A stretch of 46,213 nt of DNA, taken from the NCBI GenBank assembly GCA_008501735.1, contig QQUF01000033.1, forward strand, positions 129,727 through 175,939, in the 5' to 3' direction. Below are positions 9,101-39,715 of this stretch, in pieces (the first letter of the stretch is position 1; every line of letters begins with the position of its first letter). This DNA comes from Calditrichota bacterium. GTDB taxonomy: Bacteria; CLD3. The notes beneath the pieces are model-generated. The model ran no database searches and had not been told where the DNA came from. It saw only the letters and a list, made by a program, of their open reading frames with translations. Position numbers and translations under genes: made by a program.

Positions 9101-9619
9101 ATGTCAAAACAAAACCTGTGGGAAGACATAAAAAAAAGTCTTAAAGAAGGCGTAGATTTTGCAATCAATAAAACTGAAGAATACACTAAAGTTGGTAAAA
9201 TTAAATTAGACATTCTTGGAATTAAAAGAAGAATCGAGAGAGCATTTACCGAACTTGGAGGTATTTCTTACCATCACTCAACTTCAAAGAAAAAGACAGT
9301 TTTAACAAACACTAAAGTCTTTAAAGAAATCATTGGTAAAATCGATGAGCTAAAAGTTGAGTTAGAAGCAAAAGAAAAAGAATTAGAGAAAATCAAATCT
9401 GAGTTCAACATTGTTGACGACGCAGAAGTTACTTTTGAAGAACCGATAACAGAAGTTAAAGTCGAAGATGTTGAGTTTGAAGAAACTGTTGAAGAAAAGC
9501 CTAAAAAGAAAGCTACTCCAAGAAGAAAACCTGCTACTAAAAAAGCTACAACGACTAAGAAAACAACAACGACAAAAAAAACCGAACCTAAAACAACTAC
9601 TGAATCAAAAGAAGAATAA
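9101..9619 (+). CDS. Coiled-coil protein with acidic segment and histone-H1-like Lys/Thr tail
   Basis: The 172-residue protein has three zones. Residues 1-55 are helical and end in 'IKRRIERAFTELGGISYHH'; residues ~65-105 are a charged coiled coil ('KIDELKVELEAKEKELEKI'); residues 107-135 are strongly acidic; residues ~136-172 are a lysine/threonine/proline tail ('KKKATPRRKPATKKATT', 'KKTTTTKK') like histone H1 or AlgP C-termini. No signal peptide is present. The N-terminal part resembles small uncharacterised proteins of FCB bacteria. The tail suggests nucleic-acid binding, but this is inference; some such tails are low-complexity linkers. GGAG precedes the ATG. The sigma-54 regulator gene begins 9 bases after the stop, so the two are probably co-transcribed. 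Confidence 0.7.
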   Translation: MSKQNLWEDIKKSLKEGVDFAINKTEEYTKVGKIKLDILGIKRRIERAFTELGGISYHHSTSKKKTVLTNTKVFKEIIGKIDELKVELEAKEKELEKIKSEFNIVDDAEVTFEEPITEVKVEDVEFEETVEEKPKKKATPRRKPATKKATTTKKTTTTKKTEPKTTTESKEE

Positions 9620-9628
9620 GACTCAAGA

Positions 9629-11053
9629 ATGGAATTTGAACCTTCGATTCTTCTAATTGACGACGAAGAAAACATTAGAAAATTTCTAACTCGCTCTTTT
9701 ACAAAGAAGGGTTACAAAATTAAAACTGCTCCAACCGCCGAAGACGGTTGGAGTATTTTGTCTAAGGAAAAAATAGACATTTTAATTCTAGACATTAATT
9801 TGCCAGGAATGTCTGGAATTGATTTGCTCCAAAAAATCCGCGAAGTTGATGAGAAATCACCATTCATTGTAATGATTACAGCTTATGGCGATGTAAAAAC
9901 CGCAGTTACTGCAATGAAAGCTGGAGCTCAAGACTACATCACAAAGCCTTTTGAATTCGCCGAAATTGAAATCGTAATCCAACAAGCTTCAAAATTTATT
10001 TCGCTTTCCCAAAAAGTAGATATTTTAGAAAAGCAGATTCCGAAACGCACAAGTTTTGGAGATATGATAGCACAAAGTCCTGCAATGTTGGAAATATTCG
10101 ACATTATCAGCAAAGTTTCAAAATCTCCTACCTCAACAATTCTAATCACTGGTGAAACAGGAACCGGAAAAGAGCTCGCCGCAAGAGCAATTCACCAAAG
10201 TTCTAATCGAAGTAAAAAACCCTACATTGCAATAAACTGCACTACAATTCAAGAGACTTTACTTGAAAGTGAGCTATTCGGACACGAAAAAGGCTCGTTC
10301 ACTGATGCAAAAGAACGCAAAAAGGGTTTGTTTGAACTTGCAAATGGAGGAACTATTTTATTAGACGAAATTGGTGATATGGACGTAAAACTTCAAGCCA
10401 AACTTCTTCGAGTTCTCCAAGAAAAGACAATCCGCCGAATCGGTGGCGAAAGTGATATTCCAATTGACATCAGAGTCATTGCAACTACTCATCAAGAATT
10501 AGAAAATGCTGTTTCAGAAGGCAAATTCAGACAAGATTTATTTTTTAGGCTAAACGTAATTCCGATAGAACTTCCACCTTTGCGTAAAAGAAGAGAAGAC
10601 ATTTCAATGCTTGCAGAAGCCTTCCTTGCACATTTTAACAAAGATTTTGGAAAAGAAATCAAAGGATTTAGCGATTCGGCAAAAAAGGCTCTTACTAATT
10701 ACCCTTGGAATGGAAACATTCGTGAACTCAAAAATGTAATCGAAAGAATAGTTCTAATCGAAAGTTGTGAAGAAATTGATGTTCACAATATTCCCAAAAA
10801 TATCTTGGCTTACCTTGGAGAGATGAATTCAAACCAGAAATTTCTACTTTCTTTAGACGAAGATAACTTGAGTTTTAACGATGCTAAAAATAAAATCGTG
10901 AACGAATTTGAAGTCAATTACATCACAAGCCTTTTAGAAAAAACAAACGGTAACGTTACCCAAAGTTCAAAAATTTCTCAGACAGACAGAAGCAGTTTGC
11001 AAAGAATTATGCGAAAACACGGGATTAAATCTGAAAACTTCAGAGATAGTTAA
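9629..11053 (+). CDS. Sigma-54-dependent response regulator (NtrC family)
   Basis: The 474-residue protein has a receiver domain (residues 5-120; acidic pocket D11/D12, phospho-acceptor D55 in 'LILDINLPG', K in 'YITKPF'), an AAA+ sigma-54 interaction domain (Walker A GETGTGKE at 175-182, Walker B ILLDE with D246/E247, arginine finger region '[14 protein letters not shown]') and a C-terminal Fis-type helix-turn-helix ('[21 protein letters not shown]'). It should activate sigma-54 promoters when phosphorylated. The sigma-54 contact loop reads GSFTDA (222-227) instead of GAFTGA. The central Phe-Thr is kept. No complete cognate histidine kinase is encoded in the window. It follows the coiled-coil gene by 9 bases. 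Confidence 0.93.
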
Positions 11054-11122: not shown

Positions 11123-11965
11123 ATGAAAAAATATCTACTTTTAGCACTCACTCTCTTTTTTGTACAAAACTCATTTGCACAAAACGACAATTTTAATGCA
11201 ACACTTTGGACTCAAGTTTCTGCTGAATTCAGAGCTTTAACTTTACAAACTTACAAAAATGCCACTAAAAATTTAGAATCTGCTCTTAAAGACAAAAATT
11301 GGTCAGCAGAAATTTCACAAAGAGAAGGATTCGAAGACCTTACTCCTTGTGTTATTTTGGACATTGACGAAACGGTTTTAGACAACTCAAATTATCAAGG
11401 GCAACTCGTTTTGGACAACTCAAGTTATGCCACAAAAACTTGGGACAAATGGATTAAAATGGCAAAAGCGACAGAAGTCAAAGGAGCTTTAAATTTTGTC
11501 AAAGAAGCTAAAGAAATGGGAATCACTGTTTTTTACTTAACTAACAGAAAATGTATCGAAAGAGACGATTTGGCTTGCCCACAAGAGTTAGAAACAATCA
11601 AAAATTTGGAAACCTTAGGTTTCCCAAAAGTCAAAAAAGAAGAAATTTTACTTCGCTATGAAAGAGAAGAATGGGGTTCAGAAAAAATTTCACGTCGTCA
11701 GGAAATTGCAAAAGACTACAGAGTTTTAATGCTTTTTGGCGATGATTTAGGCGATTTTATACCAGAAGTTAAAAAGAAAATTACTTTTGAACAAAGGTTT
11801 GAATTAGTTGAAAATTTTAATGATTATTGGGGCGAAAAATGGTTTATCTTGCCGAACCCGACTTACGGCTCGTGGTTAGGAATTCTTGGAAAAAATAAAA
11901 GTGAATTCCTCAAAGGTTACAAAACAAATTCAGAAATGGAGCAATCATCTGATGAAAAAAATTAG
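11123..11965 (+). CDS. Exported HAD acid phosphatase, class B / lipoprotein e(P4)-like
   Basis: The 280-residue protein has a cleavable signal peptide (MKKYLLLALTLFFVQNSFA) without a lipobox cysteine, then the subfamily IIIB HAD signature 'CVILDIDETVLDNS' (D80, D82), 'VFYLTNRKC' (motif II), and 'MLFGDDLGDF' (motif IV). 'NATLWTQVSAEFRALTLQTY' and the C-terminal 'WFILPNPTYGSW' are typical of acid phosphatase/5'-nucleotidase e(P4) relatives. It probably removes phosphate from nucleotides or other phosphomonoesters in the periplasm. It overlaps the next exported phosphatase-like gene by 14 bases, so the two are translated together. Confidence 0.9.
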   Translation: MKKYLLLALTLFFVQNSFAQNDNFNATLWTQVSAEFRALTLQTYKNATKNLESALKDKNWSAEISQREGFEDLTPCVILDIDETVLDNSNYQGQLVLDNSSYATKTWDKWIKMAKATEVKGALNFVKEAKEMGITVFYLTNRKCIERDDLACPQELETIKNLETLGFPKVKKEEILLRYEREEWGSEKISRRQEIAKDYRVLMLFGDDLGDFIPEVKKKITFEQRFELVENFNDYWGEKWFILPNPTYGSWLGILGKNKSEFLKGYKTNSEMEQSSDEKN

Positions 11966-13892
11966 CATTCTATTTTTACTTTTTACTTTAATTGGAACTG
12001 TTTTTGCGAAACAGAACAAAAAGCAAACTACTGTAAATTTACTTTTTACGAATGACATTCACGGTGTTTTTACAGAACAACCTGCAACTTTTATGAATCC
12101 AACTCACCCACCAATGCTTTCGGGTTTTCCTGGTTTTGTAACTTATTTAAAAAATATCAAAAAAGACGCTGTTCGCAAAAATGAAGGTGTTTTGGTTTTT
12201 GATTCTGGAAACTTTTTTCAAGGAAATCCAATCGCAGTTTTAGATTCAGGAAGATCTGCAATCGAAATGATGAACGGACTTTACGACGCAATGACACTTG
12301 GACCTTACGACTTCATTTTCGGCTCAAAAAATATCGAAAACCTTTCTGAGCAAGCAACTTTCCCAATCGTTGCTGCAAATTTAAACCCTACAGCAGGTAG
12401 TTTTGCTAAAGTCAAGCCTTTTGTTATCAAAGAGTTTAACGGTGTAAAAATCGGAATTTTAGGTTTAGTTACAGGAAGTTTAAGAAATGCTGTTATTCGT
12501 GCAAATCTCAAAAATTTAAGTCCAGTTTCAGAAGTTGAAGCAATGAAAGAATGGATTCCAAAAATTAAAGAAGCTGGTGCAGATGTTGTAATTATTCTCG
12601 CAAGTGCCGGAATTCCTTACGACCGAGAAGACAAGTACGAAGAATTTTTGACAGAAGTAGATGAAGGACTTGACGTTGAAAATGCTTCATTAAATGCTCT
12701 TGGAGTCGCAAAGTATGCTAAAGGAGCTGATTTGATTTTGACAAGTGGAGCCGGAAGAGGTTACAACGTTCCTTGGTACGACCCCGAATCTCACGTTTAC
12801 GTTTTTCAAAATTATGGAGGCGGCTCAGAATTCGGTCACATAAAAATGAAAATTGATTCCGAGACAAAAAAGTTCGTTGGGTTTGAAAATGCAATCTACA
12901 ACGATGCTGGTCAAACTGCGATGCAAGAAAGATTTCCTGCCGACAAAGAAACAGCTACGAAAGCAAATTCAACACTCGAAAAGGCAATGAAAAATCTTTA
13001 CGATTACAAAGAAATTAAAGCAGAAGTAAAAATTAGCGAAGCCAAAGCAGAAGATTTTAGGGCAAAAAGACCAAACAACTGGGAAGTTCCAAGCGTGAAT
13101 TTGGAAGATGAAATTGACATTATTACTTGGAACTTAGAATTTTTTCCTGCAAGTGACGAAGAAACAATCGAAGCACTTTCTGAAATTATGATGGACTTGG
13201 ACGCTGACATTTTCGCTTTACAAGAGATTAGATACACTGGCTGGTTAAGCGATTTAATGGAAAAAATCCCTCATTACGGATTAGTTGCCTCTCAACAAGC
13301 TTCGTTTATGGATTTAGCAATTGTTTACAAAAAAGATATGTTTCACTTGGTTGGTCAAACTGAACCTTTTGCTGAAAATGATTACGATTATGCAGGAAGA
13401 CCACCGCTTCGAGGAGATTTTATTTACTACAAGAATGGTGAAAACATTCCCCTTTCAATTATTAACCTCCATATGAAATGTTGTAATTCAGGACTTCAAA
13501 GACGTAAAAATGCTGTAAAAAAATTGCATTCTTACGTTGACAAAGAATACCAAAATGGCACAAAAAACTTCATAATTTTAGGTGACTGGAATGATGACTT
13601 AAAAGATGCTCCAGGTGAACACAGTTTTGATTCATTCTTTAACGACGACAGATTTTATTTTGCAAACCAAGAATTAGTTTACGACATCGAACAATCTTCT
13701 TATCCACACGAACCTTGGGTAAGTTACCTTGACCACATTTTAGTTTCAGAATACTTAGTTCCAAAAGATTCAGGTTACAGAATTCAAACAATTTTAATGG
13801 ATAAATTTATGGGCGGAATGGAAATTTATGAAAAATTACTTTCTGACCATAGACCTGTGGCTTTAGGTTTTAAACTCAAAAAGCCATTTTAA
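11952..13892 (+). CDS. Exported fusion: degenerate 5'-nucleotidase domain + EEP nuclease/phosphatase domain
   Basis: After a signal peptide (MKKISILFLLFTLIGTVFA), residues ~25-360 follow the UshA/5'-nucleotidase fold: 'LLFTNDIHG' (D35, H37), 'VLVFDSGNFFQG', 'FPIVAANL', 'IGILGLVT'. Most metal and catalytic positions are replaced: GD is G-N87, GNHEFD is G-P118-Y119-D-F, the 'THLG' histidine is S218, and both histidines of 'GGHSHT' are glycine (266, 268). Residues ~385-646 are an endonuclease/exonuclease/phosphatase (EEP) domain with its residues intact: WN394, QE425, 'INLHMKC', 'LGDWND', 'YLDHILVS', 'SDHRPV'. The second domain is therefore probably active, while the first may only bind ligand. 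ATG at 11952 has GGAG 10 bases upstream; an upstream in-frame extension to 11886 lacks a signal peptide. Confidence 0.85.
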   Translation: MKKISILFLLFTLIGTVFAKQNKKQTTVNLLFTNDIHGVFTEQPATFMNPTHPPMLSGFPGFVTYLKNIKKDAVRKNEGVLVFDSGNFFQGNPIAVLDSGRSAIEMMNGLYDAMTLGPYDFIFGSKNIENLSEQATFPIVAANLNPTAGSFAKVKPFVIKEFNGVKIGILGLVTGSLRNAVIRANLKNLSPVSEVEAMKEWIPKIKEAGADVVIILASAGIPYDREDKYEEFLTEVDEGLDVENASLNALGVAKYAKGADLILTSGAGRGYNVPWYDPESHVYVFQNYGGGSEFGHIKMKIDSETKKFVGFENAIYNDAGQTAMQERFPADKETATKANSTLEKAMKNLYDYKEIKAEVKISEAKAEDFRAKRPNNWEVPSVNLEDEIDIITWNLEFFPASDEETIEALSEIMMDLDADIFALQEIRYTGWLSDLMEKIPHYGLVASQQASFMDLAIVYKKDMFHLVGQTEPFAENDYDYAGRPPLRGDFIYYKNGENIPLSIINLHMKCCNSGLQRRKNAVKKLHSYVDKEYQNGTKNFIILGDWNDDLKDAPGEHSFDSFFNDDRFYFANQELVYDIEQSSYPHEPWVSYLDHILVSEYLVPKDSGYRIQTILMDKFMGGMEIYEKLLSDHRPVALGFKLKKPF

Positions 13893-14592: not shown

Positions 14593-14693
14593 TAGAGTTT
14601 TACCTCCTTCTTTATTAATTTTTTATAAATCACTTCTTGTTTCAAATCTTTTCATTAAATTTTATTTTCAACAAAAATTCTAAGGGTAAAAAG

Positions 14694-17009
14694 ATGAATT
14701 TTGATGCAAATAAAATTATTAATGATTTTATAGACAAAAATGACAACTCTAAGTTAGAAAAGAACTTTTCTTCAATTTCTTTTTCTGAGTTTCTTGAAAA
14801 ACTTTCAGCTAATCCAGAAACTTTTGCAAGAAATTCAGCTGGCTATTTGTCCGATATGTTTGATTTTTACGGTTTTTATGAAATTGACTCCTTTGGTGAA
14901 AAGATTAAACGTTGGAGAGTTTTCGATTCAGTAACTGATTCAAAAAAACGTTATAAAATTATTGGAAATGAGGAAATTCAAAATTACATAGTTGGGAAAA
15001 TTAAATCTTTTTCAAATCAAGACCGCGTTGGAAAAATGATTTTGCTGAAAGGTCCAACAGGAACTGCAAAATCTACTCACTTAATTTGTATTGCTTCTGC
15101 AGTACAAGAATTTTCAAAAACTGAAGAAGGTGCTGTTTACACATTAAGTTGGGAGATTCCTTATAATTTTGGCGAACAATTTGAATTCGGAATTCAACTC
15201 GGGAAAAGTTCTCAAAAGTCAACTCAAAGCAAAAAAAATATTATAAAAAAAACTTGTGACTACAATGACTCTCCTCTTTTCATTTTGCCCAAAAATATGC
15301 GTAAAGATTTTTTGGAAAAGTTGGAAAAAGAACACAACATCGAAGGCAAATTAACAAAAGAAACTAACCTTGATGGCGAACTTTGCGTAAACTGTAATCG
15401 GATTTACAATCGTCTTTTGAATCACTTCAAGGGCGACCACAGGAAAGTTTGGGAACACGTCCAAGTTGACAGAATGATTCTTTCTTTGTTCGGGAATACT
15501 GGAGTTATCAAAATTGACCCACAGAAAAATCCTGATTTTAATGTTAGAGAAGAAAAAATTTGGGGTTACCGAGAACTACCAACGATTATGCACGACATTT
15601 CTTTTATGACACCAAGTTCTGGTGGAATTCATCGTGGAAATCGTGGAATGATTGAATACAGCGATATTTTCAAACGCTCTTCTGAATATTTAAAGTGTTT
15701 GCTTGACGTTGTTCAAGAAGGAATAATTTCTGAAGGATCGATTCGTGTGAATTTAGATTCGGTTTTATTTGCAACTTCTAACGAAGAAGATTTTCTGCGT
15801 TTCACCCAAGACCCACTTTACGTCCCTTTTCGCAGAAGATTAGATTCTGTTGATTTGGGATACTCATTAAAAATTTCTGATGAGAAAAAAATTCACGCAT
15901 CACATTTTAGATTTCTAAAAAATGAATTTGAATTCTGCCCTTTCAGTGAAGAAGCTCTTGCAATTTGGGCAGTTACGACAAGAATGGAAGAACCTATTCA
16001 AACTTTTGAAGACTACAAAAAAGAAGATTTGCAAACCATTGCCAAAATCACTCCTTTACTAAAAGCTCTGGTTTACGACCAAAGAGAACTTCCACAATCC
16101 ACGCTAAATCTTGCTGGAAAAGAAGAGGAAATTTCTTACCAAGAAAACATTACTCTTCAAAAGAATTTGAAATTACTCAGAAGTGAATGGAAGTTCTTAA
16201 AACAATCTGATAAATCTATTAAATATGAAGGACTTATTGGAGCATCGCCGACTGTCGTTGAAACAATTTTACAGAATTTAACAAATGGTAATCCTAGTTC
16301 AATTACTTATTTAGAAGTTATTAAATCTATACAAAATTTTGTGGATAAAAGCAAATTGCATTACGCTTTTATTGGAAGAGGAATCGACCCAAACAAGCCT
16401 TTTTACTTTATCGAAAACAACTTGGACGCAATCGAGAATTATTACAACCAACAACTTATCAAAAACATTCTTGACGCTTCAGGAATAATTGTTGAAAGTG
16501 AATTAGAAATTAAACTAGAAAAATATATTAACTGTCTTAAAACACATTTGACAAAAGAAAAAAGTTATTTCGACAAAGAATCTCAAAAGTACATTGAAAC
16601 TGATTACGATTTTATGGAAAAATTTGAGAGCAATCTTGAAGGGTTTAAAAAAGGAAATATTGAAGACGAAAGAAGTAGGATTCAATTTAAATTGGCTGAA
16701 GGAATTCAGAATCTAAAAAGTAATTTTGAAGGAATCAAAATCACTCCTCAAGTTTATAAAAACATTCTTAATCGTGAAATACAGTTTTATAAAAGACACT
16801 TAATCAAAACTCATTCAAAAAAGTTAAACACCTTAGTTTTAGATACTTTAAGTTATTTAGATAAATTAATTTATGGCGAGGAAATAAGTCAAACTAAGGA
16901 ATTAACTGAAGTTTTAAATTTTGTAAAGAAATTGAAACTAAATGGTTTTCAAGAAAGGAGTTTACGTTCTCTACTTGGTCATTTGATTAGTAAAAAATTA
17001 CTTTTTTAA
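14694..17009 (+). CDS. PrkA-family AAA+ serine protein kinase-like protein
   Basis: The 771-residue protein matches the PrkA/YeaG family: Walker A GPTGTAKS at 120-127, a Cys-x2-Cys pair in 'GELCVNCNRIYNRLLNHF', 'VWEHVQVDRMILSLF', 'NRGMIEYSDIFK' (PrkA 'NRGIVEF'), 'LFATSNEEDFLRF' and 'FRRRLDSVDLGYSL'. PrkA proteins couple an AAA+ module to stress, starvation or sporulation responses; kinase and Lon-like protease activities have been reported for relatives. This protein is about 130 residues longer than YeaG, with an enlarged C-terminal helical part. The partners often found beside prkA (YeaH/DUF444 and SpoVR) are not in the window. ATG at 14694 is chosen for its AAGGG ribosome site; the longer reading has none. 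Confidence 0.8.
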   Translation: MNFDANKIINDFIDKNDNSKLEKNFSSISFSEFLEKLSANPETFARNSAGYLSDMFDFYGFYEIDSFGEKIKRWRVFDSVTDSKKRYKIIGNEEIQNYIVGKIKSFSNQDRVGKMILLKGPTGTAKSTHLICIASAVQEFSKTEEGAVYTLSWEIPYNFGEQFEFGIQLGKSSQKSTQSKKNIIKKTCDYNDSPLFILPKNMRKDFLEKLEKEHNIEGKLTKETNLDGELCVNCNRIYNRLLNHFKGDHRKVWEHVQVDRMILSLFGNTGVIKIDPQKNPDFNVREEKIWGYRELPTIMHDISFMTPSSGGIHRGNRGMIEYSDIFKRSSEYLKCLLDVVQEGIISEGSIRVNLDSVLFATSNEEDFLRFTQDPLYVPFRRRLDSVDLGYSLKISDEKKIHASHFRFLKNEFEFCPFSEEALAIWAVTTRMEEPIQTFEDYKKEDLQTIAKITPLLKALVYDQRELPQSTLNLAGKEEEISYQENITLQKNLKLLRSEWKFLKQSDKSIKYEGLIGASPTVVETILQNLTNGNPSSITYLEVIKSIQNFVDKSKLHYAFIGRGIDPNKPFYFIENNLDAIENYYNQQLIKNILDASGIIVESELEIKLEKYINCLKTHLTKEKSYFDKESQKYIETDYDFMEKFESNLEGFKKGNIEDERSRIQFKLAEGIQNLKSNFEGIKITPQVYKNILNREIQFYKRHLIKTHSKKLNTLVLDTLSYLDKLIYGEEISQTKELTEVLNFVKKLKLNGFQERSLRSLLGHLISKKLLF

Positions 17010-24497: not shown

Positions 24498-25871
24498 TTG
24501 ACAATAAACCCAAAAGTAAATTTTCGTTTTATTCCGTCGGTTTCTTCTTTACTTGAAGAAACCGAAATTGCACAAAATCCCTTAGCTCCTCAAATAAAAA
24601 CAGAACTTCTTCGTAAAATCATCAGCGAAGTAAAAAATCTTTCTATTCTACCCGACTCAAAAGAGAAATTCACAACTTTAATATTAGACAAATTTAAAGC
24701 TAAGTTTGAAATTCTAAATTCAAATCCTTACCCGAAAGTCATAAATGGAACTGGAATAATTTTGCATACAGGTTTAGGAAGAGCTTCTTATTCTGAGAAA
24801 GCAAAAGAATATTTGAATGAAACAGTTAAAAATTACGCTCAAGTCGAATTTGATTTGAAAAATGGGAAACGTGGAGATAGGCAATCTGAAATTAAAAAAA
24901 TATTACAAATACTAACTGGTGCTGAAAGTTCTTTAATTGTAAACAACAATGCGGCAGCAGTTTTACTCATTCTCAATACTTTTGCAAAAAATAAAGAGAC
25001 AATCATTTCAAGAGGTGAACTTGTAGAAATCGGTGGTTCTTTTAGAATGCCCGAAATTATGGAAATGAGCCAAACCAAGATGATTGAAGTTGGTGCAACG
25101 AACAAAACTCACCTTAAGGATTACCAAAAAGCAATTTCTGCAAACACGGGACTTTTGACAAAAATTCACACAAGCAATTACAGAGTTTTAGGTTTTACAA
25201 AAGAAGTAACTTTGAATGAAATGGTCTCTCTCGGCAAGAAAAAAAGTATTCCAACTTACTATGACTTAGGAAGCGGTTTGTTTTTTCCACCAAATGAATT
25301 TGGATTGAGCGACGAGCCAACTGTCCAAGAAATCTTACAATCAGGTGTTGATTTAGTCAGTTTTAGTGGAGACAAAGCAATCGGCGGTTCTCAAAGTGGA
25401 ATAATTTTAGGAAGTAAGAAACTTATTGAGAAATTAGCAAAGAATCCATTAATGCGAACATTAAGACCTTGTAAACTCACTTTGTCAGTTTTGGCTGGAA
25501 CTTTACAAGACATACTTTTAGGAAAAGATTCATTTGAAAAAATTCCTGTTTTAAAAATGTTCAATGAATCTAATTCCGTTACAAAGGAACGAGTTAAGAG
25601 ATTTCTAAAATTGGTCAAAACGTCTTCATCTTTTAAAATAGTTGAAACGGAATTAACAGCACAATCTGGAAGCGGAGCATTTCCAATTCAAGAAATTCCT
25701 TCTTATGGAATTGAGATTTCAAGTAATAAATTATCTGATGAAGAGATTTTTCATCTTTTATTAGAAAATTCGATTGTAGGCTATAGACAGAATACAAAAG
25801 TGGTTTTAAATTTTAAAACTATTCACGAAGATGAATTAGAAACTTTAGCAAATAGTTTGAGTGAAATATAA
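24498..25871 (+). CDS. selA: L-seryl-tRNA(Sec) selenium transferase
   Basis: SelA converts Ser-tRNA(Sec) to Sec-tRNA(Sec) with selenophosphate. The 457-residue PLP enzyme shows 'FRFIPSVSSLLEE', 'VINGTGIILHTGLGRASYS', 'LVEIGGSFRMPEIM', 'GATNKTHLKDYQKAI', 'KIHTSNYRVLGF' and the PLP lysine K293 in 'FSGDKAIGGSQSGIILG'. It implies that the organism makes selenoproteins, but selB, selD and tRNA-Sec are not in this window. The TTG start has GGAGG at 24486-24490 inside the end of pmbA, 3 bases after its stop, so it is the third gene of a tldD-pmbA-selA unit, which is an unusual neighbourhood for selA. Confidence 0.94.
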   Translation: MTINPKVNFRFIPSVSSLLEETEIAQNPLAPQIKTELLRKIISEVKNLSILPDSKEKFTTLILDKFKAKFEILNSNPYPKVINGTGIILHTGLGRASYSEKAKEYLNETVKNYAQVEFDLKNGKRGDRQSEIKKILQILTGAESSLIVNNNAAAVLLILNTFAKNKETIISRGELVEIGGSFRMPEIMEMSQTKMIEVGATNKTHLKDYQKAISANTGLLTKIHTSNYRVLGFTKEVTLNEMVSLGKKKSIPTYYDLGSGLFFPPNEFGLSDEPTVQEILQSGVDLVSFSGDKAIGGSQSGIILGSKKLIEKLAKNPLMRTLRPCKLTLSVLAGTLQDILLGKDSFEKIPVLKMFNESNSVTKERVKRFLKLVKTSSSFKIVETELTAQSGSGAFPIQEIPSYGIEISSNKLSDEEIFHLLLENSIVGYRQNTKVVLNFKTIHEDELETLANSLSEI

Positions 25872-31761: not shown

Positions 31762-34700
31762 TTGAAAAAATTTACTCTACTCTTTCTGACAATTAGTCTA
31801 AATGTTTTTGCTCAAAGCTCACCTGTTGATACTTTACGAATTATGACTTACAACATACTTGACTTTCCTGATGCAATCGGAACACAGAGAGTTCCGTCTT
31901 TCCGTACTGTAATTGATGAAGTTCAACCTGACATTCTGGTTGTCCAAGAAATGCACACAAGTAGCGGTGTAAACGAATTTCTTGACGATGTTTTGAATTT
32001 TACAACTCCAAACCTCTACTCTAACGCTCCATTTATTGACGCAAGTTTTGACACCGAAAATGCACTTTTTTATAAAAGCTCAAGTGTTAATTTTATTTCT
32101 CAAGACACGATTTTGACAAACATTCGAGCAATTTCCGAATACACTTTGGAATCAAATACTTTTGTTCCTCAAGAATTCAAAATTTATTCTGTTCACTTAA
32201 AATCCTCCGAAGGTTCTGCAAACGAACAACAAAGACTTGTTGAAGCAACAATTCTGCGAAACAGAACAAACCAATTACCAATCGGAACCGAATTTATGGT
32301 AGTTGGAGATTTTAATCTTTACTCTGACCAAGAACCTGCTTTCCAAAAACTTATCGGAAGTGAAGCGAACAACAACGGAAGATTTCGCGACCCAATTAAC
32401 CAATCAGGAAATTGGCACAACAATTCATCTTACAGCCAAATTCACACTCAATCTACACGAACTTCAAGTGTTGGAAGTGGTGGAGCTCTCGGAGGTCTTG
32501 ACGACAGATTTGACTTCATTTTGCCTTCTTACGGAATGAATGATAATTTTGGAATCGACTTCCTACCTTCTACTCACATTGCCTTCGGAAATGACGGAAA
32601 CCATTACAATCAATCAATAAATTCAGGTTCAAATTCGGCAGTTTCTTCGGTAGTTGCAAATGCTTTGAATTTTGCTTCTGACCACTTGCCTGTTGTGATG
32701 GATTTTGCAGTTTACAGTTTGGCAGATTCAACAAATCCACAAATCAACTCTGCTTCTGCTTTGAACTCAAACACTGTTCGTGTTCAGTTTGACGAAAATA
32801 TTTCTCAACAAACTGCCGAATCAGTTTTGAACTATTCTGTAAACAACGGACTAGGAAATCCAACAACTGCCGTTCAGTTTAGCGGAAATCAAGTTGACCT
32901 AACTTTTGCACAAAACATTGTAAGTGGTATCACTTACATTTTGACTGTAAACAACATTCAAGACACTGACGGAAATCTAATTGACCCGAATTCAACTACA
33001 ACCTTTTTCCTTTCACTAACTCCTTTAGCTGGTGATTTGGTGATTTCAGAATTTTTCAAAAACCCATCTGCTGTTAGCGACAGTGACGGAGAATTTGTAG
33101 AAATTTACAATCCAACAGCAAATACTTACGACTTGAACGGCTTAACCCTAAGAGACAACGGAACAGAATCTCACACAATTAATAGCCCAAATCCTCTTCT
33201 AATTCAACCAAATGACTTTTTTGTCTTCGGAATAAACGGAGATTCTAACACAAACGGCGGTTTTCAAGTTGATTACGTTTACGAAACTTTCTTTTTGAGT
33301 AATTCTACAAACGGCGACGAAATAGTTCTTACTGACGGAGCTACAATCATTGACGAAGTAATTTTTTCAAATGCTTTAGGTTTTCCAAATCCAACTGGAA
33401 GTTCATTGGAATTGAGTTCTTTGAATTCCGATAACTCAATTGGTTCAAATTGGCAAGTCTCAACTATTCCGCTTGGAAACGGAGACTTTGCAAGTCCAGG
33501 ATTTTTCTTTGAAACAACTCCTCCAACAATTGACACTGTTCAGGTTTTGACTGCAAATTTAATTTCTGTTGAGTTCTCAGAAGCAGTAAACTTAGCTACC
33601 TCACAAAATCCGAGCAATTACTCTATTGACAATTCAATTGGGAATCCTGTTACAGCAAATTTTGCAAGTGGAAGCACTCACGTTATTGAACTAACTCTTC
33701 CACAAAATTTAACTTCTGCAACTTTTACTTTGACTGTAAACAATGTTCAAGATTTAAGTGGAAATGTGATTTTGCCAAATTCAACTGCAATTTTTTCTTA
33801 TACTGCTCCTGACCCAATTGAAATAATTATTACAGAATTTATGCGAAATCCATCAGCAGTCAGTGACCTTGCTGGAGAATTTGTTGAGCTTTACAATCCG
33901 ACAAACAGTCCGATTAACATTGACGGTTTTATCCTCAAGGACAACGACATCGAAACTCACACAATTGACAACGGTGGTTCTCTGCTCATTCCACCAAATG
34001 ATTTTCTTGTTCTCGGAATCAACGGAGATACAAACACAAACGGCGGAATTAATGTTGATTACGTTTATCAAAATTTCTTTTTAAGTAATTCTTCAAATGG
34101 AGATGAAGTTGTAATCGAAGCAAATGGAATTGTACTTGACGAAGTGATTTTTTCAGATGCATTAGGATTTCCGAATCCAAGTGGTAAGTCTTTAGAAATT
34201 TCATCTTTAACAGCAGATAATTCAATAGCTTCAAATTGGATAGAATCGACGAATCAACTTCCAAGTGGTGATTTTGCAACTCCCGGATTTTTCACAACTG
34301 CTGTTCCAACTCCTCCGACTATTGACACGATTTTGGCTTTAAATACTAATTTAATTTCGGTTGAGTTTTCAGAAAGTGTTGATTCTACAACTGCATTAGA
34401 CCAAAATAATTATTTTATCAACAACTCAATCGGAAATCCAAGTTCTGTAAGTTTTGCAATTGGAAGTTCAGAAATTGTAGAACTTACACTTTCACAACCG
34501 CTCACAAATGGCAACTTTACTTTGACTGTGAACAATGTTGAAGATTTAGACGGAAATGTAATTTTACCAAATTCAACGGCTAATTTTTCATACACAACAT
34601 CCGTTGTTGTAAATCTTGTAATTACAGAAATAATGAAAAATCCGACTGCTGTAAGCGATTCTGATGGTGAATTTGTTGAGATTTTTAATCCAACAACAAA

Positions 34701-35313
34701 TCCGATAAATATTGATGGATTTGTTTTAAGAGACAACGGAAGTGAATCTCATACAATTGATAATGGAGGTTCCTTAATAATTCAACCAAACAGTTTTCTT
34801 GTCCTTGGAATTAACGGTGATTCAAATGTAAACGGTGGAATTATAGTTGATTACGTTTACTCAACATTCTTTTTGAGCAATTCAGCAAATGGAGATGAAG
34901 TAATTCTCGAAGACAATGGAATTGTAATTGATGAAGTGATTTTTTCAAGTTCTTTAGGATTTCCAAACCCAACTGGAAAATCAATTGAAGTAACATCTTT
35001 GACAGTTGATAATTCATTAGGCTCAAATTGGACGGAAGCTACAAACCAACTTCCAAATGGCGACTTTGCAACTCCTGGTTTTTTCGGAAGTTCTGCACAA
35101 ATTGATGCTCCAAGTGTTTCAATTCAGATTTCAGGGACAGATTTAATTCTAAGTTGGAGTGCTGTAACAAATGCAACAAACTACGATGTTTACGAATTGG
35201 ATTTGCTTTCTCAAGTGGAATCTCTTTTGGGTAACTCTACAAGCCTTAACTTTACAATTAACAATTTTTCATTAAATTCACAAAAATATTACTTTGTGAA
35301 ATCGAAAAATTAA
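31762..35313 (+). CDS. Large secreted EEP nuclease/phosphatase with Ig-like and lamin-tail repeats
   Basis: The 1183-residue protein has a signal peptide (MKKFTLLFLTISLNVFA) and an EEP domain to about residue 320 with 'IMTYNIL', 'LVVQEM', 'YSVHLKSS', 'VVGDFNLYSD', 'DDRFDFILPS' and 'SDHLPVVMDF', all active-site residues present. Three copies of an SbsA-type Ig domain ('LISVEFSEAV...FTLTVNNVQDLSGNV') alternate with three lamin-tail domains ('VISEFFKNPSAVSDSDGEFVEIYNP...GDEIVL...VIFS'). The end is an FN3-like module ('LILSWSAVTNATNYDVYE') without the usual type IX sorting domain. It is probably an extracellular DNase or phosphodiesterase. The TTG start is needed to include the two lysines of the signal peptide. 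Confidence 0.9.
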   Translation: MKKFTLLFLTISLNVFAQSSPVDTLRIMTYNILDFPDAIGTQRVPSFRTVIDEVQPDILVVQEMHTSSGVNEFLDDVLNFTTPNLYSNAPFIDASFDTENALFYKSSSVNFISQDTILTNIRAISEYTLESNTFVPQEFKIYSVHLKSSEGSANEQQRLVEATILRNRTNQLPIGTEFMVVGDFNLYSDQEPAFQKLIGSEANNNGRFRDPINQSGNWHNNSSYSQIHTQSTRTSSVGSGGALGGLDDRFDFILPSYGMNDNFGIDFLPSTHIAFGNDGNHYNQSINSGSNSAVSSVVANALNFASDHLPVVMDFAVYSLADSTNPQINSASALNSNTVRVQFDENISQQTAESVLNYSVNNGLGNPTTAVQFSGNQVDLTFAQNIVSGITYILTVNNIQDTDGNLIDPNSTTTFFLSLTPLAGDLVISEFFKNPSAVSDSDGEFVEIYNPTANTYDLNGLTLRDNGTESHTINSPNPLLIQPNDFFVFGINGDSNTNGGFQVDYVYETFFLSNSTNGDEIVLTDGATIIDEVIFSNALGFPNPTGSSLELSSLNSDNSIGSNWQVSTIPLGNGDFASPGFFFETTPPTIDTVQVLTANLISVEFSEAVNLATSQNPSNYSIDNSIGNPVTANFASGSTHVIELTLPQNLTSATFTLTVNNVQDLSGNVILPNSTAIFSYTAPDPIEIIITEFMRNPSAVSDLAGEFVELYNPTNSPINIDGFILKDNDIETHTIDNGGSLLIPPNDFLVLGINGDTNTNGGINVDYVYQNFFLSNSSNGDEVVIEANGIVLDEVIFSDALGFPNPSGKSLEISSLTADNSIASNWIESTNQLPSGDFATPGFFTTAVPTPPTIDTILALNTNLISVEFSESVDSTTALDQNNYFINNSIGNPSSVSFAIGSSEIVELTLSQPLTNGNFTLTVNNVEDLDGNVILPNSTANFSYTTSVVVNLVITEIMKNPTAVSDSDGEFVEIFNPTTNPINIDGFVLRDNGSESHTIDNGGSLIIQPNSFLVLGINGDSNVNGGIIVDYVYSTFFLSNSANGDEVILEDNGIVIDEVIFSSSLGFPNPTGKSIEVTSLTVDNSLGSNWTEATNQLPNGDFATPGFFGSSAQIDAPSVSIQISGTDLILSWSAVTNATNYDVYELDLLSQVESLLGNSTSLNFTINNFSLNSQKYYFVKSKN

Positions 35314-37282: not shown

Positions 37283-39715
37283 TTGAAATTATTCAAAATT
37301 AAAATTTTTCTACTTTTACTCTGCTCTTTCCCAATTCCAAAAGGCATTTTTGCACAAACAAGTTTAGCAGGAACAAATCTAGTTACTGGTGAATATTTTT
37401 GGGACAACGACCCGAACTTTGGAAACGGAACAACTTTTACTTTTACTCAAGACGATTCTATTGACTTCTCGGAAATTGTTAGTACAACAGGACTCACTAA
37501 AGGTGTTCACAAACTTTATTTTAGATTTAAAGATTCAGCTAATTTATGGACGCAAAAACAACACGTTCTCGTGAATGTGAATGAAGCTTCAAACCAACCT
37601 GAATTTGCAGGTGCAAACTTAGTTACTGGAGAATATTTTTGGGGCAACGACCCAAATTTTGGAAACGGAAATCCTTTTACTTTTACTCAAGGCGATTCGA
37701 TAAATTTCTCGGAAATTGTAAGTACAGCAGGACTTACAAAAGGTGTTCACAAACTTTATTTTAGATTTAAAGATTCAGCTAATTTGTGGACTTCAAAACA
37801 GCACGTTTTAGTGAATGTGAATGAAGCTTCAAACCAACCTGAATTTGCAGGTGCAAACTTAGTTACTGGAGAATATTTTTGGGGCAACGACCCAAATTTT
37901 GGAAACGGAAATCCTTTTACTTTTACTCAAGGCGATTCGATAAATTTCTCGGAAATTGTAAGTACAGCAGGACTTACAAAAGGTGTTCACAAACTTTATT
38001 TTAGATTTAAAGATTCGGCTAACTTGTGGACTGACAAACAACACGTTTTAGTGAATGTGAATGAAGTTTCAAACCAACCTGAATTTGCAGGTACAAACTT
38101 AGTTACTGGAGAATATTTTTGGGACAACGACCCAAGTTTTGGAAACGGAAATCCTTTTACTTTTACTCAAGGCGATTCAATTGATTTTTCAGAAATTGTA
38201 AGTACATCAGGACTCACTAAAGGTGTTCACAAACTTTATTTTAGATTTAAAGATTCAGCTAATTTATGGACGCAAAAACAACACGTTCTCGTGAATGTGA
38301 ATGAAGTTTCCAACTTACCCGAATTTGCAGGAACAAACTTAGTTTCTGGTGAATACTTTTGGGACGATGACCCAAGTTTTGGAAACGGAACAGCTTTTAC
38401 TTTTACTCAAGGCGATTCGATAAATTTCTCGGAAATTGTTAGTACAACAGGACTCACTAAAGGTGTTCACAAACTTTATTTTAGATTTAAAGATTCAGCT
38501 AATTTGTGGACTTCGAAACAACACGTTTTAGTTAATGTGAATGAAGCTTCAAACCAACCTGAATTTGCAGGTGCAAACTTAGTTACTGGAGAATATTTTT
38601 GGGACAACGACCCAAGTTTTGGAAACGGAAATCCTTTTACTTTTACTCAAGGTGATTCAATTGATTTTTCAGAAATTGTTAGCACAACAGGACTCACTAA
38701 AGGTGTTCACAAACTTTATTTTAGATTTAAAGATTCAGCTAACTTGTGGACTACAAAACAACACGTTTTAGTGAATGTAAATGAAGTTTCCAACTTACCC
38801 GAATTTGCAGGAACAAACTTAATTTCTGGTGAATACTTTTGGGACGATGACCCAAGTTTTGGAAACGGAAATCCTTTTACTTTTACTCAAGGTGATTCAA
38901 TTGATTTTTCAGAAATTGTTAGCACAACAGGACTCACTAAAGGTGTTCACAAACTTTATTTTAGATTTAAAGATTCAGCTAACTTGTGGACTACAAAACA
39001 ACACGTTTTAGTGAATGTAAATGAAGTTTCCAACTTACCCGAATTTGCAGGAACAAACTTAATTTCTGGTGAATACTTTTGGGACGATGACCCAAGTTTT
39101 GGAAACGGAACAGCTTTTACTTTTACTCAAGGCGATTCAATTGATTTCTCGGAAATTGTTAGTACAACAGGACTCACTAAAGGTGTTCACAAACTTTATT
39201 TTAGGTTTAAAGATTCAGCTAACTTGTGGACGGGTAAGCAATTTGTTTTGGTTAGTGTTCAAGATGGAAGTCTCGGAGATTTGCCATTTTTCATAACTGA
39301 TGTGGAGTATTTTTGGGACAACAACGACCCGGGAGAAGGAAATGCAAATTTAATCGGAAATTCAGAAAACTTTTCGGCTGTGCTTTCAACAACAGGTTTG
39401 ACAGTTGACCTTCACACTATAAATGTTCGAGCAAAAAATAATCTTAACATTTGGAGCGACCCAAAATCATTTTTGATTGGAGTTGGTTCAATGGCACTTT
39501 TTATTGATGTTGTAAATGATGACGTTCAGCTTTCTTGGTTAGAAGACCCAAGTGCTTTGGCTTATGAAATTTACAGAAGTACAAGTCCGACTAACTTACA
39601 AGACTTAACTCAACTCTCTCCTTACACAACTGTTACTCTCACAAATTTCACAGATTTAAATGCCGCTTCTTCGGGAATGACAAACTATTTTTATAAAATT
39701 AAAGCAATTCCTTAA
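37283..39715 (+). CDS. Secreted protein of eight near-identical 80-residue repeats
   Basis: The 810-residue protein has a signal peptide (cleavage near 'GIFAQT'), then eight tandem 80-residue repeats of the type 'GTNLVTGEYFWDNDP.FGNG...FTFTQGDSI.FSEIVST.GLTKGVHKLYFRFKDSANLW', a ninth, diverged copy ('FITDVEYFWDNNDPGEGN...GLTVDLHTINVRAKNN') and a C-terminal FN3-like module ('VQLSWLEDPSALAYEIYRS...NYFYKIKAIP'). 'EYFWD.DP.FGNG' repeats occur in many exported proteins of FCB bacteria, their function being unknown; an adhesive or structural surface role is likely. The TTG start is needed for the signal peptide. The gene follows the beta-helix gene by 15 bases. Confidence 0.85.
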   Translation: MKLFKIKIFLLLLCSFPIPKGIFAQTSLAGTNLVTGEYFWDNDPNFGNGTTFTFTQDDSIDFSEIVSTTGLTKGVHKLYFRFKDSANLWTQKQHVLVNVNEASNQPEFAGANLVTGEYFWGNDPNFGNGNPFTFTQGDSINFSEIVSTAGLTKGVHKLYFRFKDSANLWTSKQHVLVNVNEASNQPEFAGANLVTGEYFWGNDPNFGNGNPFTFTQGDSINFSEIVSTAGLTKGVHKLYFRFKDSANLWTDKQHVLVNVNEVSNQPEFAGTNLVTGEYFWDNDPSFGNGNPFTFTQGDSIDFSEIVSTSGLTKGVHKLYFRFKDSANLWTQKQHVLVNVNEVSNLPEFAGTNLVSGEYFWDDDPSFGNGTAFTFTQGDSINFSEIVSTTGLTKGVHKLYFRFKDSANLWTSKQHVLVNVNEASNQPEFAGANLVTGEYFWDNDPSFGNGNPFTFTQGDSIDFSEIVSTTGLTKGVHKLYFRFKDSANLWTTKQHVLVNVNEVSNLPEFAGTNLISGEYFWDDDPSFGNGNPFTFTQGDSIDFSEIVSTTGLTKGVHKLYFRFKDSANLWTTKQHVLVNVNEVSNLPEFAGTNLISGEYFWDDDPSFGNGTAFTFTQGDSIDFSEIVSTTGLTKGVHKLYFRFKDSANLWTGKQFVLVSVQDGSLGDLPFFITDVEYFWDNNDPGEGNANLIGNSENFSAVLSTTGLTVDLHTINVRAKNNLNIWSDPKSFLIGVGSMALFIDVVNDDVQLSWLEDPSALAYEIYRSTSPTNLQDLTQLSPYTTVTLTNFTDLNAASSGMTNYFYKIKAIP
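37367..39286 (+). repeat. Eight tandem 240-bp repeats
   Basis: Units start at 37367 and recur every 240 bases exactly, with no indels. Units 2 and 3 are nearly identical until about 38020, and units 6 and 7 are identical over about 195 bases (38626-38820 versus 38866-39060). This points to recent duplication or gene conversion, and the copy number may vary between strains. The repeats lie inside a coding sequence and are far too long for a CRISPR array. Confidence 0.95.

Follow-up and report, generated by a model that had tools for sequence, protein, structure and literature searches.

The 46,213 nucleotides of Calditrichota DNA analysed here (the window) belong to a contig of 176 kb, in a genome of 4.1 Mb. 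One of its open reading frames runs from the ATG at 11952 to a stop codon ending at 13892 (11952..13892, +), and encodes a fusion protein of 646 aa. The protein consists of a signal peptide, a degenerate UshA-type domain, a linker and an EEP domain, as judged from the reading frame, the family matches and 51 aligned full-length homologues. The predicted signal peptide (residues 1-19; 11952..12008, +) reads MKKISILFLLFTLIGTVFA/KQ and is without a lipobox; direct reading of the N-terminus makes it plausible. The degenerate UshA-type metallophosphatase domain (about residues 27-345; 12030..12986, +) was delimited by alignments with active relatives and has the fold of 5'-nucleotidases. The linker (about residues 346-384; 12987..13103, +) was taken from the AlphaFold2 model, with low confidence at residues 352-361, and is followed by the EEP (DNase-I-like) domain (about residues 385-642; 13104..13877, +), which was assigned by PF03372, its invariant residues and its fold. 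The mean pLDDT of the model is 87 (90 for the EEP alone); both domains were predicted with confidence and the linker poorly, and how the domains are placed relative to each other was not confidently predicted (pTM 0.66).

The start codon of the fusion gene overlaps the 3' end of a gene for an acid phosphatase of the HAD type (11123..11965, +). Its product matched PF03767 with 127 bits, well above the cut-off of that family, and contains the HAD motifs DIDET and GDDLGDF; the score against the e(P4) model TIGR01533 was 203 bits, just under the cut-off of 216. The gene was called e(P4)-type, not a TIGR01533 member, and its product is likely an exported 5'-nucleotidase. Further upstream (9101..11053, +), a small basic protein and an NtrC-type response regulator belong to a neighbourhood common to the window genome and a relative of the same family. 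A PrkA-type AAA protein of about 790 aa (window 14637-17009, +; L044:5763-8072, +) scored far under the cut-off of the PrkA kinase family, and its gene adjoins recN in both family members. The Rfam search gave no match.

Loss of the metal site and replacement of the C-terminal domain

The first half of the fusion matched PDB 3ivd in a sequence search (E 2e-18) and also the NCBIfam UshA/YfkN/SoxB models, and Foldseek assigned the model of this domain to the 5'-nucleotidases (E about 1e-21). The UshA-type N-terminal fold is thus kept, as the initial annotation had proposed. UshA-type enzymes depend on two metals, a catalytic His and a C-terminal domain that binds the substrate; the dinuclear site of UshA is formed by D41, H43, D84, N116, H217, H252 and H254. 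Only the first two of the seven ligands survive in the window fusion (D35 and H37). Alignment with four active relatives showed that N87 replaces the bridging Asp, P118 and Y119 replace the N-H of GNHD, S218 replaces the His of the GH motif, and G266 and G268 replace both His of GHxH. Moreover, I122 stands for the Asp ending GNHxxD, which is the Asp of the His-Asp dyad; this dyad is therefore replaced by Y119 and I122. Among 70 active homologues, D87, N118, H119 and H266 were each conserved in 70/70 and H268 in 69/70, and therefore the substitutions in the window are not chance variation.

The active relatives match both PF00149 and PF02872 (the latter strongly), whereas neither Pfam profile matched the window fusion, which carries PF03372 instead. 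Thus the C-terminal substrate-binding domain is absent, and the EEP domain occupies the place of the C-terminal 5'-nucleotidase/nucleotide-binding domain. The initial annotation had listed N87, P118, Y119, S218, G266 and G268, all of which were found where it placed them; however, it did not include I122, this exchange of domains, the overlap with the acid phosphatase gene or the outer-membrane operon of most homologues. Given the requirements of these enzymes, and the observation that the His117Ala variant of CpdB is essentially inactive on 3'-AMP (PMC7922932), the N domain of the fusion should not be expected to hydrolyse nucleotides, and its description as a pseudoenzyme is supported by the sequence.

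Residues were counted in an alignment of 52 fusions (the query and 51 full-length homologues), and the metal site is degenerate in 51/51 of the homologues. Position 87 is Asn in 51/52 and Ser in 1/52, position 266 is Gly in 49/52, and position 218 is variable (27 His, 23 Ser and 2 Asn). D35 is present in 47/52 and H37 in 50/52, which together with the 27 His at position 218 might be taken as a sign that a single metal is still bound (with D35, H37 and perhaps N87 as ligands) and that the domain is a reduced or altered hydrolase, the protein being bifunctional. This appears improbable, because the catalytic position 119 and position 268 are His in 0/52 of the fusions, the substrate-binding C domain is missing, and the CpdB variant mentioned above is essentially inactive on 3'-AMP.

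Two further UshA-type domains with degenerate ligand residues were seen (L012, G030:C20; L023, G038:C46), and LysM domains come after one of them; dead UshA domains may have had more than one origin. In addition, three UshA-like proteins (L041, G000:C41; L042 and L043, G001:C229) have one in-frame TGA and CxxCH haem-type motifs, and resemble the UshA-like (seleno)protein model. The window contains a selA gene (24498-25871), and therefore selenocysteine use is likely.

The second half of the fusion matched PF03372 with 45.5 bits, compared with a cut-off of 24.5, and has the complete catalytic set of the EEP superfamily (N394, E425, H507, D545, N547, D594, H595, D632 and H633), in agreement with the initial annotation. 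These residues are invariant across the 52 aligned fusions, bar one ambiguous letter. The closest structures in Foldseek were a Bacteroides EEP protein, DNase I, DNase1L3 and TDP2; the sugar phosphatase BT3783 (mannosyl-6-phosphatase) and nocturnin appeared further down the list. No real match was found for the EEP domain in a PDB sequence search, for which the query was slightly truncated, and the domain is 29-43% identical to aligned lone EEP proteins. Fold and context point to a putative nuclease.

A clade of fusions under purifying selection

The N-domain alignment was scanned against 84,980 species genomes, which gave 80 loci. Five of these are full-length fusions with degenerate UshA residues, all from Marinimicrobia; the other 75 encode UshA-like proteins that have no EEP and, in nearly all cases, retain the full set of ligands. 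A profile search was also made in 245 genomes of the phylum Ca. Marinimicrobia/Fidelibacterota. Among the matches listed, full-length fusions occur in 52 of the 245 genomes (54 genes) and ordinary UshA proteins of 544-564 aa in another 23, and no genome had both. Support for the initial interpretation was to come from a clade sharing both the substitutions and the fusion, and the search for such a clade was thus strongly positive. The parts of the fusion are of known kinds, and the finding is confirmed as widened from one protein to a family. In G557 the fusion is apparently split into two ORFs; this was distrusted, as the sequence is full of ambiguous bases.

The dN/dS between close fusion pairs was about 0.08 for the UshA part and about 0.05 for the EEP part. 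Both domains are under purifying selection, and therefore the dead UshA domain keeps some function. Chance, pseudogene decay and misassembly were ruled out as sources of the fusion, because there are many intact relatives, the dN/dS is low and the flanking genes are ordinary.

The fusions form one clade in the N-domain tree (support 100/99; 98/94 with the motif columns dropped) and one group in the EEP tree (92/85). In the full-length tree, the query is sister to 21 Marinimicrobia fusions that have Ser218 (joint group 100/100), although the rooting of this tree was imposed. Ser218 is common to the query and these 21 proteins, most of which also have Tyr119 and Ile122. No fusion was found in other genomes of the window's phylum, nine phylum genomes being covered. 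Since the query is nested among the Marinimicrobia fusions and its own phylum has none elsewhere, the simplest assumption is that a Marinimicrobia-like donor passed on the gene; the window copy was probably acquired horizontally, with some doubt left by the imposed rooting and the long branch of the query.

The family relative encodes an active UshA in the neighbourhood that it shares with the window (response regulator, small basic protein, RecN and PrkA-like AAA), with an N domain 37-38% identical to the query. The fusion might accordingly have been formed in situ in the window's lineage from such a gene, independently of the Marinimicrobia fusions. The trees make such descent in place very unlikely: both the N-domain tree, with or without the motif columns, and the full-length tree put the query with the Marinimicrobia fusions, in the latter case with the Ser218 subclade, and a tree joining the query with the UshA of the relative was marginally rejected (p-AU 0.045). 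Moreover, slot and strand within the shared neighbourhood are not the same in the window and the relative.

The pairing with an e(P4)-type gene is not confined to the window. Such a gene lies just before the fusion in six Marinimicrobia fusion operons, and is broken into two ORFs in G566; a search of the flanks of the 75 UshA loci that lack EEP gave none. Joint transfer of the e(P4) gene and the fusion was considered; however, the e(P4) tree places the window gene and the Marinimicrobia operon genes on separate branches. The pairing therefore looks independent in the two groups, like a repeated replacement of the lost phosphomonoesterase.

Operon context and possible role

The UshA gene or the fusion is immediately preceded, in 54 of the 80 loci, by two genes, one for an HhH_3 protein (about 830 aa) and the other for a FadL/Toluene_X-like protein (about 450 aa); several further loci have only one of the pair, or are cut by a contig end. 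The ComEA-like HhH_3 protein is probably an outer-membrane barrel, considering its length and C-terminal Phe. The fusion loci show the same gene order as the active-UshA loci, with the fusion in the operon slot of UshA, and in many of them a lone EEP lipoprotein gene is added downstream. In L054 the reading frame continues, across a masked stretch, into a second EEP domain. An EEP gene also lies downstream of active UshA in the operon of L114, and this arrangement suggests a possible way for a fusion to arise. The operon of HhH_3-barrel, FadL-like protein and UshA was seen in most of L053-L132, which include Marinimicrobia, Cloacimonadota, Calditrichota, Eisenbacteria, Krumholzibacteria, Zixibacteria and others.

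The window genome carries its HhH/FadL pair on another contig, without a neighbouring UshA gene, and the pair of the family relative likewise stands without UshA; therefore, docking to this pair in the window genome would have to act in trans. In both genomes the pair adjoins a weak PorP/PorV-like gene (L151:4773-8754 and L152:4450-8433).

HhH proteins can, by analogy, handle extracellular DNA in Gram-negative bacteria, because natural transformation in Riemerella requires a helix-hairpin-helix protein (PMC8459023). The Marinimicrobia lineage UBA2242 was recovered from DNA-fed cultures (PMC8630151); the accessible text of that source names extracellular nucleases for other lineages, not for UBA2242. 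The operon is present in a UBA2242 genome (L070), with an active UshA.

The fusion might well be the secreted nuclease of a nucleic-acid-scavenging system, in which the dead UshA domain is kept for docking or binding; a role in feeding on nucleic acids is probable. The DNase-I-like EEP domain of the secreted or periplasmic protein would cut extracellular nucleic acid. Deprived of its second metal site, bridging Asp and His-Asp dyad, the UshA domain would be non-catalytic; selection would retain it as a module for docking or nucleotide contact, derived from the UshA that formerly held the operon slot of the fusion. It may keep the nuclease at the outer-membrane machinery of HhH-barrel and FadL-like porin, and the terminal phosphate would be removed by another enzyme, in the window by the overlapping e(P4)-type acid phosphatase. 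Nuclease activity, the docking role and nucleic acid as substrate are the three elements that we infer; the HhH/FadL operon slot, the downstream EEP lipoproteins, the e(P4) pairing and the DNase-like EEP model are consistent with the nuclease. The proposal of the initial annotation, i.e., a disabled first domain serving as a substrate-binding or targeting module, holds as regards the pseudoenzyme by sequence, the intact EEP, the clade and a role retained under purifying selection; substrate binding or targeting is what this role may be.

The EEP fold is also found in sugar phosphatases and nocturnin-type NADPH phosphatases, which argues against the nuclease. The EEP domain could instead be a non-nuclease phosphodiesterase or phosphatase on lipids, sugars or dinucleotides, in an operon that handles those compounds; BT3783 and nocturnin are among the fold matches, and FadL-type porins are classic carriers of lipids or hydrophobic compounds. 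This is rather unlikely, considering that DNase I, DNase1L3 and TDP2 are among the best fold matches, that the operon contains a protein with the HhH DNA-binding motif, and that two types of nucleotidase are involved, UshA as the ancestral partner and e(P4) as the second. A broader picture may tentatively be drawn, in which the HhH-barrel, the FadL-like protein and UshA (or the dead-UshA/EEP fusion with an EEP lipoprotein, with or without the e(P4)-type phosphatase) would form a widespread, undescribed outer-membrane system for nucleic-acid utilisation in Marinimicrobia, Cloacimonadota, Calditrichota and related phyla, the dead UshA having been recycled as a docking part for a DNase.

Relation to known enzymes

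The UshA/CpdB/CD73 family (PF00149 and PF02872) shares with the fusion the N-terminal fold, many non-catalytic motifs and the signal peptide, and an active UshA-like protein holds the same operon slot in related phyla; however, the fusion has lost five of the seven metal ligands and the His-Asp dyad, and its C-terminal domain is exchanged for EEP. In ExeM/NucH proteins, such as ExeM from Shewanella (PMC6085458), an exported nuclease-type EEP also follows an accessory N-terminal region, which there is a lamin tail and an OB-fold-like region and here is the dead UshA domain. The fusion is without LTD and scored 32 bits against NF033681, the ExeM/NucH model, with a cut-off of 300. The lone EEP lipoproteins and EEP+LTD proteins of related bacteria share the EEP domain, some being encoded directly downstream of the fusion, but have no UshA domain. 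The Bacillus YhcR also unites nuclease and 5'-nucleotidase parts in one exported protein; however, its nucleotidase part keeps the residues and the C-terminal domain, and its nuclease part is of another type.

No description of the combination, the clade or the operon exchange was found in the open-access literature searched, and so the initial view that the arrangement is undescribed stands within that scope. The fusion is a clear case of a secreted pseudoenzyme: a catalytic domain was disabled, another enzyme took the place of its substrate domain, and selection has maintained the disabled domain in dozens of species. The operon is, moreover, a candidate for the means by which abundant uncultured bacteria could feed on nucleic acids.

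The window encodes a second secreted EEP protein of 1183 aa (31762-35313, +), with Big_5 (bacterial Ig-like) and lamin tail domains, whose EEP part is only distantly related to that of the fusion. Another protein, of 810 aa (37283-39715, +), matched many unrelated Pfam families, weakly and at scattered places, and may hence be repetitive or of low complexity.
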